64,000 nucleotides of DNA from Candidatus Nitrososphaera gargensis Ga9.2 (GCF_000303155.1 NC_018719.1:2604001-2668000); one strand, 5' to 3'. Counted from the stretch's first letter, positions 24,548 through 60,656 are shown. Numbers and translations are program-made. Notes: generated by a model not told the origin, from the letters alone.

Positions 24548-24769
24548 TATATGTGATTGAAGCAGCTCAAGCAAGATATTTAGCAATTGCAGATTTACAA
24601 TAATATGTTGTATTGCATTTTAGCGCACAGACTCGGCTTTGTGTAAAAAGTAATAACTCATAAAAACAAAGTCATGCAATCAAACAGCTATCGAAGCATG
24701 GATTGGTGACTTTTTAAACAAGCTCACAGACTCGAAATTCTTTTATGAGATATTTTCCATGATTCGATG

Positions 24770-53804: not shown

Positions 53805-54197
53805 TTACCAACTTTCTACAACCAAACCCGGCACCCTCTCAAAGTGCTTGACATTTCTTGTCAGCAGTATTTGTTTATTGGCAAGTGCGATGCTGGCGAT
53901 AAAGAGATCGAGCTCTCCAATTGAATTAGACTTTGTCTGTTCAGCAAGCTCTGCCCATGTCCTTGCAGATTCATAATCAAGATTTAGGATAGAAAATTTT
54001 GACAGGTCGTTCTTGGTATCAGCAAGCGCTCTTGCTCTATCTTTTGCCCTGTAGGCTCCATAATAAAGCTCGGCCACGGTTATGGCAGTAGTGAAGAATG
54101 TGTTTTCACCCCTATCTTCCAGTTCTTGCAGTTTGTCAAACGCTTTCTGACTGCCTCTGCCAAGATCAATGATAAAGTCCGTATCTACACAGACCAT
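53805..54197 (-). CDS. vapC: PIN-domain toxin, VapC type
   Basis: 130 residues from ATG 54197. The acidic catalytic residues of PIN domains are visible: VDTDFIID near residues 4-11, TVAELYYG and SIGELDLFIASIAL with a last TRNVKHF. VapC toxins are RNases. Only a short antitoxin-like fragment precedes it (54200-54280), so the toxin may be orphaned or harmless. Intact. Confidence 0.82.
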   Translation of the reverse strand: MVCVDTDFIIDLGRGSQKAFDKLQELEDRGENTFFTTAITVAELYYGAYRAKDRARALADTKNDLSKFSILNLDYESARTWAELAEQTKSNSIGELDLFIASIALANKQILLTRNVKHFERVPGLVVESW

Positions 54198-55907: not shown

Positions 55908-56048
55908 GCATCTTTAATGTTACCGTGATATAAAAGCCTATAGATTGGCCCTCTAGACTTGGGCCAATCTAGCTAGATATGATATATTTAGTTTTTCAGC
56001 ACACAGGCTTTGTGTAATAAATGACTTCTGTATAGAAAGGCGCTCAGT

Positions 56049-56138
56049 TGTTTAAGAAGTATGGGCTGTTTAATTACTCTCATTTTGTTTAAAAAGTCAG
56101 TTTGTTTAAAAAGCAACATTTGTTTAGAAAATGTCAAC
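56049..56138 (+). repeat. array of ~18-nt TGTTTAAAAAGTC-like repeats, array 1
   Basis: Five units begin with TGTTTA (56049, 56067, 56086, 56103, 56121), at 18, 19, 17 and 18 bases. The third and fourth read TGTTTAAAAAG. The array lies in intergenic DNA upstream of the operon at 56408. It matches the array at 60259. Confidence 0.7.
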
Positions 56139-56151
56139 TGCTTCGGCCATT

Positions 56152-56309
56152 CTATTCGCCGTCTTCAGCCTCCTCTTCATGTTCATCGGTCTCCAGTTCA
56201 AGCTCCTTGATGGAGAACCCTAATTCTTTGGCTTTGCCAAGTCCAACATCTTCTGCATCACCAGAATCTCATCGATCTCTTTTGTCGCAAGTTCCAATTC
56301 TATTTCCAT
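56152..56309 (-). pseudogene. small acidic protein with one frameshift
   Basis: ATG 56309 reads MEIELELATKEIDEILVM and LDLAK, then TAG after AKPKN. One base out, KELGFSIKELELETDEHEEE continues to a stop at 56152. 158 nt (not a multiple of three). The acidic C-terminus and matching helix pattern support a single short protein. Confidence 0.5.
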
Positions 56310-56407
56310 GCAATAATGAGCGGTATCTTGAGAGTATAAGCAATAGGTTTGCAAGGTATGGCAAGGCAAATGTCTTGGTTATCTTGTGCAGCTCATAATC
56401 TCCAAAC

Positions 56408-56557
56408 ATGGTATCGGAAATAGAAGCAATCGGATGGACGGCGCTTGGATTTGGAGCGACTTTTCTTGCTCTGAACGTAGCTCACAAGGAGAAGCGCATG
56501 CGCAGGCTGTTTGCAGGCATAAATGAAAGGAAGCAGGAGGATGTCCTGACAGCATGA
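56408..56557 (+). CDS. 49-aa single-helix membrane protein
   Basis: ATG 56408 to TGA 56557. MVSEIEAIGWTALGFGATF continues with LALNVAHKEKRMRRLF: one hydrophobic helix followed by a positive face. It overlaps the next gene by ATGA, so both are co-translated. Confidence 0.6.
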   Translation: MVSEIEAIGWTALGFGATFLALNVAHKEKRMRRLFAGINERKQEDVLTA

Positions 56558-57111
56558 CCTCTGGCAAGTTTTTCAACAAAGGGGTCATGGCTCTGGACGC
56601 TCCCCATATAGGATACGTAGTGCGAGAAACCAAGGACAAGATCGTAATCTTTGGCGACGGCGACGAGAGATACGACGTATTAAAGTCAGAAATACAGATG
56701 GTCAGCAGAAATGTGTTGATCGGGCTCCCATTTCATGAAATCGTAAGGCGCTACAAGAAGAGCAGAAGCCATCCGCTTCCGATTAGCAAGCCAGCAGCGA
56801 AATGGGTCTTTACGCACGATGTTGACTTGGCGACATACGAAAAGAAGTACCCGAAATCGCTCTTTAACAAGGGTGTCAGAACAAAAGACGAAGAGCATGT
56901 TGGCCATGTGATGAAGGAAACCGACAAGAAAATAGTGGTATGGGGACACTATGACTGGCGATTTGACGTGCCTAAGAGCAAGATAGTTGCAGTGGGACGC
57001 AATGTCATACTAGACATGGAATACTCGGAGATATTCAAGTACAAGGTAGACAGAAATTCGCCTTTGCCAACAGGAGAGCCAGTAGCTTCACTAGCGGCGG
57101 AACAAGGCTAA
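56554..57111 (+). CDS. two-domain PRC-barrel-like protein
   Basis: 185 residues with an internal repeat: residues about 3-75 (KFFNKGVMALDAPHIGYVVRE, FGDGDERYDVLKSEI, NVLIGLPFHEIVRRYK) and about 100-175 (SLFNKGVRTKDEEHVGHVMKE, WGHYDWRFDVPKSKI, NVILDMEYSEIFKYK). The two copies match in order and spacing. The domain resembles the PRC-barrel/DUF2171-type proteins at 8317 and 24068. Co-transcribed with the tiny membrane protein before it. Function unknown. Confidence 0.7.
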   Translation: MTSGKFFNKGVMALDAPHIGYVVRETKDKIVIFGDGDERYDVLKSEIQMVSRNVLIGLPFHEIVRRYKKSRSHPLPISKPAAKWVFTHDVDLATYEKKYPKSLFNKGVRTKDEEHVGHVMKETDKKIVVWGHYDWRFDVPKSKIVAVGRNVILDMEYSEIFKYKVDRNSPLPTGEPVASLAAEQG

Positions 57112-57127
57112 TTTTTGTTGATGCAAA

Positions 57128-57335
57128 ATGGCAATCCAACACACTATTCAGAGTCGGCACCTTCTTGCGGTGATCGCAGGAATCATCGGCATAGTGCTTT
57201 TCTGGCGTGGAATATGGGAGCTTTCAGAAAAGATTTTTTTCTCCAGAGTGGAGCCTTGTCCTTGGATTGGGTCTATTGGCAATAGTCGCATTGATTGAAA
57301 GAAAAATGCTGTACAAATTTCTGGGTGCAGTATAG
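57128..57335 (+). pseudogene. two-helix membrane protein with a frameshift in a T run
   Basis: ATG 57128 gives MAIQHTIQSRHLLAVIAGII, IVLFWRGIWELSEKIF, then loses the frame in a run of seven T near 57225. One base fewer continues SPEWSLVLGLGLLAIVALIE and KMLYKFLGAV to a stop at 57335. 208 nt, one more than a multiple of three. A homopolymer error is a strong alternative. Confidence 0.55.
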
Positions 57336-57352
57336 CATCCCTAAAAGCAGCG

Positions 57353-57835
57353 CTAATTTTTATTCACAAGCATCACAGGACACGACGATTTTTCCGATAC
57401 TACCCGAGACACGCTTCCCATCGCCTTTACGATTCTTCCTATGCCAGTAGCTCCCGCCCGACCCATTACGATCAGATCGACAGTTTCCTCTTTTGCAACC
57501 TCTAGAATTTTTTCAGCGGGAGAGCCTGTGACTATCTTTGTTGCGATTGGGTGCTGCAATCGGTATTTCTTTACTAAATCTTGGAGTCTCTTTGCCATTT
57601 CGATTTTCATCTCTTGATGTACCTCCTTCAAGAATGCGGCCATCGTAGTGGTTTCACCCGTCTTTGTTGACCTCGCAGTGCCAAGGTACATTGCGGGCAC
57701 TGGAAGCACGGGAACCACATGGAGAACGATTATCTGGGTGTTCTTGACCTCATCCGCATACTGTGCTGCAATCTCAAGCGCTCTTTTTGAATAGGCAGAT
57801 TCGTCATACGGTACCAGGATTTTCTTGAAAACCAA
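57353..57835 (-). CDS. universal stress protein
   Basis: 160 residues, TTG start at 57835 (family start LVFKKILVPYDES). USP nucleotide site GRAGATGIGRIVKAMGSVSR, typical G-x2-G-x9-G-(S/T), and the C-terminal strand SSCPVMLV. An internal helix insertion (TGETTTMAAFLKEVHQEM) is somewhat long. Binds ATP in many family members; role is general stress. Divergent from TerC by 117 bp. Confidence 0.88.
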   Translation of the reverse strand: MVFKKILVPYDESAYSKRALEIAAQYADEVKNTQIIVLHVVPVLPVPAMYLGTARSTKTGETTTMAAFLKEVHQEMKIEMAKRLQDLVKKYRLQHPIATKIVTGSPAEKILEVAKEETVDLIVMGRAGATGIGRIVKAMGSVSRVVSEKSSCPVMLVNKN

Positions 57836-57952
57836 TTTTCCTCTGTATCTGGTAAACTCAGTTTCTCATTTAACGTTCTAGTTTGCCCTGCCATACGTTG
57901 CAAACTGCCGGCTGATATACTCTCCAGGATAGAGGAAAAGACGAAAAGTGAG

Positions 57953-58999
57953 ATGGAATCATTACCAGCACTGTACGGCAACGGCATAACACTATGGATA
58001 GTTTTCGCAGTTTCAGTCGGACTTGCCATTGCAATAGACTTGGGACTTACCGGGAAGGTTAGAAAGCTCCTCTCAAAACAGAAGGATGAGAAAAGCGACT
58101 CATCGCCAAGTGAAGAAAAGCAGCCATTCAAGCAAGCCCTGATGTGGACTATTGTCTGGATCGGAATGGCTGGAGCGTTTGCAGTTCTTGTCTATGTAAG
58201 CTTGGGCTATGACAAGATGCTAGAGTTTGTCACAGGCTACACGCTTGAAAAGTCGCTGAGTGTAGACAACATGTTTGTCTTTCTCCTGATATTCACAACC
58301 CTTGCGATACCACACGCTTTCCAGCATAAGGTTTTGACTGTAGGTATTTTGAGTGCCATAGCAATGAGAATACCTCTAATACTAGTCGGCGTTTCGCTTC
58401 TTGAAAGCTTCCACTGGATGGTCTATGTGTTTGGAGGGTTGCTTGTGCTCACTGCGGTAAAGATGCTTCTTCAAAAGAAGGACAAGAAGATTGAGGTAGA
58501 GAAGAACATTGCCGTCAGGATGCTGCGCAAGGTCGTGCCTGTTACCACGGAGCTGAACGGCGACAAGTTCTTTACGAAAAAGAACGGTATACTGTTTGCA
58601 ACGCCACTATTGGTAGCTCTGGTAATGGTAGAGATGACTGACTTGGTATTTGCAATAGACTCTATACCAGCAATCTTGGCGATAACTTCAGATCCGTTTA
58701 TAGTAATAACATCAAACATATTTGCAATACTAGGCCTGAGGAGCCTGTACTTCTTACTGGCTGGCATGATGGAAAAGTTCCACTACCTGAAGCCCGCTCT
58801 TGTGGCACTACTGCTCTTCGTGGGCTTTAAAATGATAGCAGTGGACTATGTAAAAGTGCCAATCGCAATATCGCTTGCAGTGATTGGCGGAATACTTGGT
58901 ATTGCGATTGGGCTATCTTACCTAAAAGCAAAGAGGCAATACAATCATCAGGAGAAAAGTGCAATTGAAAGGGCGACAAGAGAGGATGCAAAGCAATGA
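57953..58999 (+). CDS. TerC-family membrane protein
   Basis: 348 residues with about eight helices and a charged loop (QKDEKSDSSPSEEKQPF). Recognised by YTLEKSLSVDNMFVFLLIF, VEMTDLVFAIDSIPAILAI (acidic residues in a helix) and ALVALLLFVGFKMIAVDYV. TerC/Alx proteins handle metal ions, chiefly manganese, in other prokaryotes. It overlaps the next small gene by ATGA. Confidence 0.88.
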   Translation: MESLPALYGNGITLWIVFAVSVGLAIAIDLGLTGKVRKLLSKQKDEKSDSSPSEEKQPFKQALMWTIVWIGMAGAFAVLVYVSLGYDKMLEFVTGYTLEKSLSVDNMFVFLLIFTTLAIPHAFQHKVLTVGILSAIAMRIPLILVGVSLLESFHWMVYVFGGLLVLTAVKMLLQKKDKKIEVEKNIAVRMLRKVVPVTTELNGDKFFTKKNGILFATPLLVALVMVEMTDLVFAIDSIPAILAITSDPFIVITSNIFAILGLRSLYFLLAGMMEKFHYLKPALVALLLFVGFKMIAVDYVKVPIAISLAVIGGILGIAIGLSYLKAKRQYNHQEKSAIERATREDAKQ

Positions 59000-59190
59000 A
59001 CCAAGTGTATCAAGAAGTAAATAGAACGAATGAACGGAAGGTCAAACAGCAAACTGCACATTTCCTTTTGTGTAGGAAGTGTTTTTGGTGCGCCTCATTG
59101 ATCGCACCCGATCACAAAAGGTATGAATGTCCGTGCTGCAACTGCGAAGCAGGAATTATCCCCCTTTTTTCTTCCGATACGGCGATGTAA
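58996..59190 (+). CDS. 64-aa zinc-ribbon protein coupled to TerC
   Basis: ATG 58996 overlaps the TerC stop, so it is co-translated. HFLLCRKCFWCASLIAPDH and ECPCCNCEAGI carry two Cys-x2-Cys pairs, like the protein at 2-322 (HFLFCDQCYWSAS). A zinc ribbon next to a metal-transport gene may sense or bind metal; inferred from position. Confidence 0.7.
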   Translation: MNQVYQEVNRTNERKVKQQTAHFLLCRKCFWCASLIAPDHKRYECPCCNCEAGIIPLFSSDTAM

Positions 59191-59198
59191 GACAAAGA

Positions 59199-59588
59199 CT
59201 AGGCGAGATGTTCGGTATCCACCATAAATGACAATGTTGTGTCAGTGACGGTAAAGTCCACCCTTTTTAGACCAAAATCCTCAAACAGTGATTCATACTG
59301 TTCCTTTAGATACACCGACCACTTTCTACCCATCTCATGTTGAATCGTATATGCTTGCTTTGAAAAGTTAACCTCGTGCCTGTACGGATAACCTGCTATT
59401 CTGATCCAAGTTTCTATTACATCAAGCGCAGATGTGATATTGTATTCGTTACGCAGCATCAAGACGAAATCACGGGTTTCTTTCTTTGCAATGTACTCTG
59501 CAATTTTTGCTAGCATTGAAGCGAAATCTGAGGGAAGAGCAAACGGATTGGGGAATATTGGTATCAAAGGTCTTTCCAAGCAACGCAC
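59199..59588 (-). CDS. hypothetical protein, GTG start
   Basis: 129 residues from GTG 59588; an ATG at 59516 would give a shorter, better-spaced product because the divergent gene starts at 59600. Helix/strand mix: KKETRDFVLMLRNEYNITSAL, WIRIAGYPYRHEVNFSKQAY, TVTDTTLSFMVDTEH. No metal or membrane segment. Not recognised; it pairs with the divergent 59600 gene. Confidence 0.55.
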   Translation of the reverse strand: MRCLERPLIPIFPNPFALPSDFASMLAKIAEYIAKKETRDFVLMLRNEYNITSALDVIETWIRIAGYPYRHEVNFSKQAYTIQHEMGRKWSVYLKEQYESLFEDFGLKRVDFTVTDTTLSFMVDTEHLA

Positions 59589-59599
59589 TTAATGACAAG

Positions 59600-59983
59600 A
59601 TGTACATTGATACAAGCGGAATATTGGTTGTCAAGACAGATTATGCGTCTGCGGCATACTTGGGGCTGAGACATGCTGTGATACATCAGTTCCAAGTTCA
59701 ATCTCGGCTGAATACTCAGCAGGAAAGAGAAGGCGCACATGATCAGATTCTTGGTGTATTGAAGGATTGGATGCAAGGGAACAAGCTAAAGGATGTGTTT
59801 GCCAAAATAGACGAGGCGAGAAAGGCGACTATAGAAACAGAAGACCTGCTGCAAAAGCTCCAGACGTATAATGAGAGGACAGTAAAGAGTTCGAGAGAGT
59901 TTCAGATTAAGATTAGGGGCTGGCTTCAGGAATCAACTCAGATTCTTGGTGAGTTACAAGAAAAACTCCCCCTTGACTCGTAG
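59600..59983 (+). CDS. hypothetical helical protein
   Basis: The ATG at 59600 (MYIDTSGILVVKTDYASAA) gives 127 residues; longer frames overlap the opposite gene. After a short strand part it is helical: LRHAVIHQFQVQSRLNTQQE, GVLKDWMQGNKLKDVFAKID and a coiled end. Not recognised. Confidence 0.5.
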   Translation: MYIDTSGILVVKTDYASAAYLGLRHAVIHQFQVQSRLNTQQEREGAHDQILGVLKDWMQGNKLKDVFAKIDEARKATIETEDLLQKLQTYNERTVKSSREFQIKIRGWLQESTQILGELQEKLPLDS

Positions 59984-60076
59984 GCTTGCAACTACTATTC
60001 TTTTGTTCAAGCCATTTTGATCTGGTAGATATTGGTACAGTTAAAATGAAGTGTATGGATATAGTTTCCCGAGGGT

Positions 60077-60234
60077 AGGGTTCCAAGCCCTGCACTTGAT
60101 CGCCAATAATAGACAAGTGTGAGAATCGCACCTCCAAGCATCATTAGATGCTGGCAAGCACTCGACAGCATCATGGCAGTGATGCAGTTGCCCCGTAACC
60201 AGTCGGGTAGTTCTCCCCTCTTATGATATAAGAG
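60077..60234 (+). ncRNA. hairpin-rich intergenic region, candidate structured RNA
   Basis: Five perfect or near-perfect hairpins follow one another: AGGG-7-CCCT (60077-60091), CACTTG-15-CAAGTG (60093-60119), GCATC-ATTA-GATGC (60138-60151), GCATCA-6-TGATGC (60168-60185) and CTCTTAT-GAT-ATAAGAG (60218-60234). No coding frame is present. It begins about 95 bp after the 59600 gene and ends 25 bp before the second TGTTTA repeat array. No known RNA family is recognised; it is only a candidate. Confidence 0.4.
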
Positions 60235-60258
60235 AAGTTACTTTGAAACCTGAGAGTT

Positions 60259-60369
60259 TGTTTAGAAAGTCGCTTCTGTTTAGAATGTGCTAGTGTTTAC
60301 CAAGTCAGCGTCTGTTTAAAAAGTCGATTTTGTTTAAAAAGTCAGCGTCTTGTTAGATTAGTATCGACA
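60259..60369 (+). repeat. array of ~18-nt TGTTTAAAAAGTC-like repeats, array 2
   Basis: Units begin TGTTTA at 60259, 60277, 60294, 60313 and 60331, followed by TGTTAG at 60351, so spacings are 18, 17, 19, 18 and 20 bases. The last two units (TGTTTAAAAAGTC) are the best preserved. A reverse-orientation copy (TTTTAAACAAA) lies at about 60379-60389. Confidence 0.7.
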
Positions 60370-60656
60370 CCTACCGAGTTTTTAAACAAAGCCCAGCACA
60401 CACTTATGATGGTAGTAGTAAAAACCGTCCTTCCTGAACGCTTGTTTACCATCTTATCGCTATCAAGTATTTGTTGCATACAATGGTAACGCAATCCGCC
60501 TTGCCTTATCTTGACGTTGCGCATTACATGCTTCCAAACATGATCTCGTCTACCGTGTAGATCTCTAATGTCATAAAAACAAGAATCTATATATACATAT
60601 ATACTGCCGACGACTTTTAAGGCAGTCTTACCAAAGTTCCTGCACAGAAGCGGCAA
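60342..60656 (-). CDS. uncertain 104-aa frame in the repeat region
   Basis: RDLHGRRDHVWKHVMRNVKI, RQGGLRYHCMQQILDSDKMV has protein-like composition, but the C-terminal end (FKNSV) reads through a repeat unit and there is no neighbour or good ribosome site. It may be a chance frame. Reported with low confidence only. Confidence 0.25.
   Translation of the reverse strand: MPLLCRNFGKTALKVVGSIYVYIDSCFYDIRDLHGRRDHVWKHVMRNVKIRQGGLRYHCMQQILDSDKMVNKRSGRTVFTTTIISVCWALFKNSVGVDTNLTRR

Follow-up and report, generated by a model that had tools for sequence, protein, structure and literature searches.

The window, as we call the whole 64,000-nucleotide stretch analysed here, covers positions 2,604,001-2,668,000 of the closed 2,833,868-bp genome of Candidatus Nitrososphaera gargensis Ga9.2 and contains two arrays of a short direct repeat with a run of genes and gene fragments between them. 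From left to right, this run starts with a decayed, frameshifted short ORF (56145-56400, minus strand), which sequence comparison and direct reading show to be homologous to a 120-aa ORF in another genome (G040, locus L062). It continues with an intact 185-aa two-repeat protein (56554-57111, plus strand), which has no Pfam match and has paralogues in its own genome at about 70% nucleotide identity, a universal stress protein (Usp, PF00582; 57353-57835, minus strand), a TerC/Alx-family membrane protein (PF03741, and TIGR03718 above cut-off; 57953-58999, plus strand) and a 64-aa ORF (58996-59190, plus strand). The last two items are a truncated 129-aa gene (59199-59588, minus strand), homologous to a 182-aa protein up to about 59514, and a DUF2130 fragment (59486-59983, plus strand) that corresponds to the middle of its family (PF09903 positions 103-230 of 255); a 75% match elsewhere in the same genome belongs to the 129-aa gene, not to the neighbouring DUF2130 fragment. 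To the left, just outside the transposon described below, lies a gene for an RTX calcium-binding nonapeptide-repeat protein (PF00353; 54375-55082, minus strand), and beyond it a 130-aa ORF (53805-54197, minus strand) that reads like a putative VapC/PIN-domain toxin.

Array 1 (56049-56133, plus strand) has five units, starting at 56049, 56067, 56086, 56103 and 56121, and array 2 (60259-60343, plus strand) has another five, at 60259, 60277, 60294, 60313 and 60331, followed by a degenerate unit at about 60351. All the units that a sequence-only reading of the window had listed were found again at these positions, with a unit spacing of 17-19 nt in both arrays, and so was the reverse copy that it had noticed after array 2, at 60376-60388. 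Two more units, absent from that reading, extend the left array to 56029 and 56011. The regularity of the arrays is far above chance: TGTTTA words chained at 17-19 nt number five, against a maximum of two in 200 dinucleotide-preserving shuffles.

The arrays are not free-standing: each forms the inner portion of one end of a single element and lies just inside its terminal inverted repeats (TIRs). This element occupies 4,388 bp (window 56006-60393) and has 18-bp TIRs and a perfect 9-bp target-site duplication (TSD). The left TSD, CAGCACACA (55997-56005), is matched at nine of nine positions by the right one (60394-60402). The left TIR, GGCTTTGTGTAATAAATG (56006-56023, plus strand), which we call end A, includes the first site (56011-56023), while the right TIR, GGCTTTGTTTAAAAACTC (60376-60393, minus strand; end B), is inverted relative to array 2 and is itself the reverse copy mentioned above. 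The window holds a single case of a 9-bp duplication combined with a 14-nt TIR match; 50 shuffles had none. The repeated 13-bp unit, TGTTTAAAAAGTC, corresponds to TIR positions 6-18, where the information content of the arrays peaks; it is low at positions 1-3, and the outer GGC of the TIR is missing from the array units.

The genes between the arrays had been described as a set of stress and membrane genes bracketed by them. They do lie there, but they are not merely bracketed: they are the cargo of the transposon. Much of this cargo lines up collinearly with a gene cluster on the chromosome of G040 (L062; 70-77% nucleotide identity) that is without such TIR ends and that includes a 34% identical counterpart of the 64-aa ORF. 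The homology runs from 56150, just inside array 1, to about 59514, where the DUF2130 fragment starts. It looks like a host gene cluster was captured and a second fragment was joined to it, donor and sequence of events both being presumed. As relatives do not share the flanks of the element, a DNA search with these flanks returned no spanning match and no empty insertion site. An Rfam search of the element gave no match.

In its own genome the 4.4-kb element is single-copy, and its ends are not. An exact search for the 13-mer gave 18 occurrences, against none for the reversed control, and outside the arrays these are, for most copies, the ends of a dispersed repeat of about 91 bp. The same TIR is found on about 17 MITE copies with ends GGCTTTGTGTAAAAAGTA and GGCTTTGTTTAAAAAGTC, and a 9-bp TSD with at most one mismatch flanks 10 of the 12 copies examined. 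One MITE of this family lies in the window (24635-24725), with an 8-bp TSD, ACAGACTC. A 379-bp relative with the same end design carries a gene (a 111-aa ORF) and has the TSD GGTCAGGCA. The transposase remains in this genome only as a decayed fragment of about 119 aa. This IS5-like fragment (1774781-1775137) abuts a TSD-less MITE (L165 1501-2038, G000:C1:~1774781-1775318), and the junction between the two looks as if they had been joined by deletion.

Elements with the same ends and unit layout are also present in further Nitrososphaera, in families of this order beyond that of the genus, and in DPANN archaea. We searched 400 genomes of the order for the TIR (the related genomes include G042, 2,527,938 bp, and G026, 2,954,373 bp) and found it in 11, and we scanned GTDB with the exact 18-mer. 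Two identical 8,936-bp elements (0 differences) are present in G026, one with the TSD GTCGTCAAC and the other with none, and an 11,783-bp element with the TSD CAAAAACCC is present in G030. Smaller elements were found in G034 (629 bp, imperfect TSD), G098 (1,495 bp, TSD GCTTTGATT) and G088, where an 86-bp element with the TSD GCACATTGA has no gene and consists of little beyond a TIR, two units and a TIR. The GTDB scan added a 911-bp element with a methyltransferase in Pacearchaeota (TSD GTTGGATGT), a 598-bp element in Diapherotrites (TSD TAATCAAAG) and a 99-bp MITE in Aenigmatarchaeota (TSD TGCTCATTT), as well as one end with three tandem units in Hadesarchaea, for which no partner end was found. 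The bacterial matches to the exact TIR in the scan of genome contigs were mostly lone, and these are taken as chance. Viral contigs yielded one unpaired TIR match and nothing that matched the array, and relatives of the transposase in IMG/VR (48% identity) had no such ends. Two further loci are recorded here as observations: a 48-bp TIR pair, GGCTTTGTTTAATAAGTC.../GGCTTTGTTTAAAAAGTG, which forms a very small element without TSD (L160 2203-2250, G088:C44), and four TGTTTA(A/G)AAA-like units spaced 18, 24 and 20 behind a response-regulator gene (L073 1501-1575, G032:C45). No TIR was found in the 11 kb read around the latter, which is either a decayed end or a stray array.

Comparison of these elements reveals a fixed, asymmetric layout of their ends. 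Taking end A as the end with direct inner units, its sites are all direct and start at 0, +18 and +38, counted from the unit of the TIR; end B has two sites, roughly 62 and 42 bp from the element end, and the inverted TIR. In eight other elements these offsets stand out with z values of 5.4 and 2.8 (+18 and +38) and of 4.4 and 2.8 (the two end-B offsets). Site direction is also biased (39 vs 10 unit-like sites, p = 4e-5, against an interior background of 0.83 and 0.59 per element), with a p value that overstates the case since the label was chosen per element; what is informative is the agreement between the two ends of an element, together with the fixed offsets. Sites match the TIR of their own element better than other TIRs (permutation p = 0.005), and where the TIRs have diverged (TGTTAAA... 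in G030, TGTGTC... in G151) the units have diverged likewise. The fit of the Diapherotrites element to this layout is partial, with one site, at +39. The window element keeps +18, in the form of its second site TGTATAGAAAGGC (56029-56041, plus strand), an offset canonical in most other elements, as well as +38 (the unit at 56049) and 62 (the unit at 60331, the canonical B site, 62 bp from the element end); near 42 its site is degenerate. Four units are added at each end, and units beyond the canonical three are found only in this element, where they could have another role.

Candidate transposases are found in the large elements. The 8.9-kb (G026) and 11.8-kb (G030) elements encode DDE transposases of 345-354 aa that are 60% identical to each other and match PF01609 above cut-off. 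Their best NCBIfam match is the IS5-family model NF033579 (6e-33), with 114.6 bits vs a cut-off of 140, and in a profile search they showed PF01609 alone, with no PF13737 domain. In the 8.9-kb element the transposase is not surrounded by nested ends. A 4,270-bp contig of G151 starts and finishes at such ends and holds a 40%-identical transposase (L221 2925-4256), in which an N-terminal SWIM zinc finger (PF04434) is fused to DDE_Tnp_1 and which adjoins a restriction-methylase-like gene. The Diapherotrites element has a C-terminal piece of the same enzyme adjoining end B, beside a MutH-like fragment. Both large elements also encode, by end A, a protein of 186-187 aa (L152 1152-1709 and L204 14162-14725; 60% identical) with no clear family; a very weak RNase_H_2 match (E 0.046) and an FDIETVP motif lead us to guess that it may be a DEDD-type nuclease. 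PDB searches with the transposase and with the 186-aa protein returned no convincing relative. The remaining cargo comprises a MAD2/type I-like methyltransferase, a ParE-like toxin and a PLD (DrmC-like) protein in the 8.9-kb element, and a protein kinase-HD protein and a DUF3800 protein in the 11.8-kb element. By comparison, tblastn of the window with both large-element transposases and a domain search of the ORFs found no transposase gene in the 4,388-bp element, which is non-autonomous because it is without a transposase of its own.

Taken together, we hold it highly probable that a non-autonomous DNA transposon with cargo genes and with iterated putative transposase-binding sites at its ends occupies window 56006-60393, and the 13-bp unit is very probably a landing site for the transposase. 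The suggestion that the arrays are iterated protein-binding sites rather than CRISPR thus stands in so far as it can be deduced from the identity of the unit with the inner part of the TIR, from the fixed offsets and from the co-variation with the TIR. One protomer of transposase would bind each unit, the outer GGC would be the part used in cleavage and joining, and several sites per end would help to assemble an asymmetric synaptic complex like that of Mu/Tn7-type elements, in which end A, where every site is direct, differs from end B, where the terminal one is inverted. The enzyme would be the 345-354-aa IS4/IS5-like DDE transposase of the G026 and G030 large elements, acting in trans, and the long arrays (about seven sites per end) may be local duplications of a basic three-site end. 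The window element is probably immobile now, because only a decayed fragment of the transposase is left in the genome.

Direct, evenly spaced sites near genes would also be expected if the arrays were sites for a transcription factor, host or element-encoded, controlling the cargo genes from the two ends, and the restriction of the units past the canonical three to the window element fits such a role. We nevertheless judge this improbable: the unit is positions 6-18 of the TIR and co-varies with it, its offsets to the ends are fixed across elements with unrelated cargo, and units are present even in the gene-less 86-bp element. Short AT-rich direct repeats with regular spacing would also suit replication iterons or an origin element, the line taken in the sequence-only reading. 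The same motif, however, ends MITEs of 86-99 bp and transposons with defence genes, which, along with the TIR and TSD that bound the arrays and the absence of any replication or initiator gene from a domain search of the ORFs in 56006-60393, leaves hardly any room for this explanation.

As to the enzyme, mobilization by an IS1595-family transposase instead of the IS4/IS5-like one was suggested by a decayed IS1595-type IS that lies between GGCTTTG ends (G000:C1:446865-447953; L019 1366-2454) with a 9-bp TSD, GTGCCGGTG. That IS, however, has inner ends of its own, GGTAATACC, as in L080, where the TSD is 8 bp, and IS4/IS5-like transposases lie inside four independent elements with the ends described here. 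It looks like the IS inserted into a MITE of this transposon family; we consider mobilization by IS1595 very unlikely, and with its own inner ends and its 8-bp type of TSD it was rejected as the parent family. Mutator/IS256, a candidate for TSDs of 8-9 bp, was discarded as well, with a PF00872 transposase in 0 of 18 genomes of the genus. The PF13737-positive (IS903-type) ISs of this archaeal family have TGCTTTGTTGC... ends and 8-9-bp TSDs, a similar style in which the ends are not the same.

With the IS4/IS5-like enzyme as the presumed mobilizer, we lean, if only slightly, towards a wider proposal. These elements would form an undescribed archaeal group of IS4/IS5-like DDE transposons, whose fixed asymmetric three-site ends evolved independently of Mu/Tn7, with large, much defence-like cargo and a conserved 186-aa companion near end A; the group would have moved among Nitrososphaerales, DPANN and possibly Hadesarchaea, and the window element would be a derivative that captured cargo and expanded its site arrays. 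The usual view of simple IS-type transposases is that they move about 1-2 kb, using a single site at each end. Here, in ammonia oxidisers as well as in DPANN archaea, an IS903-like TIR and a 9-bp TSD are coupled to asymmetric multi-site ends, and the cargo, in elements of up to 11.8 kb, includes methylase genes and others that are defence-like. The group would be a concrete vehicle for gene traffic between these archaea, and it makes it practicable to test whether additional subterminal sites are what lets a small transposase move long cargo.

A 2019 survey of thaumarchaeal IS-like transposons includes N. gargensis and N. evergladensis as hosts and lists the IS5 family (PMC6563490). It describes these transposons as typically having one or two genes, and the words MITE and cargo are absent from its main text (PMC6563490); the hosts are shared with our elements, while a cargo group with multi-site ends is not described in that main text. 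Outside the subscription literature and ISfinder, the archaeal cargo-transposon group is apparently undescribed, being IS903-like in TIR and TSD and Mu/Tn7-like in the architecture of its ends. A review of prokaryotic MITEs mentions neither cargo nor subterminal sites (PMC10969869). Like the present element, with its captured host genes or gene fragments, prokaryotic MITEs, mobile insertion cassettes and eukaryotic Pack-type elements are non-autonomous and have TIRs and TSDs; a difference from the Pack-type elements (Pack-MULE) is that this genus has no Mutator/IS256 transposase in the 18 genomes searched.

IS903 is about 1 kb long, with single sites and no cargo, and positions 6-18 of its IR are the part bound by the transposase. 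We take the array unit to coincide exactly with this part. The left TIR of the window element is identical at 15 of 18 positions to the IR of IS903B, GGCTTTGTTGAATAAATC, which is reported with a 9-bp repeat (PMC10569121); the TIRs of the family reach 15-16 of 18, and the 9-bp target duplication is common to both. Unlike IS903, the ends described here have up to three or more sites and the elements reach 11.8 kb. Membership in IS903 proper is not claimed, because PF13737 was not found and the NF033579 match is below cut-off.

At one end of Mu, the terminal site is inverted relative to the inner sites. The present elements differ from Tn7 and Mu in that genes of the TnsABC or MuA/MuB type were not seen among their ORFs, a single DDE_Tnp_1 transposase being present, and in the length of the TSD, 9 bp instead of 5 bp. 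VchCAST has three TnsB sites per end (PMC10201428), and the cargo of Tn7-like transposons is rich in defence genes (PMC8649781). Several transposase-binding sites per end (putative here), asymmetry of the ends and defence-rich cargo are what the archaeal elements have in common with Tn7-like transposons and Mu.
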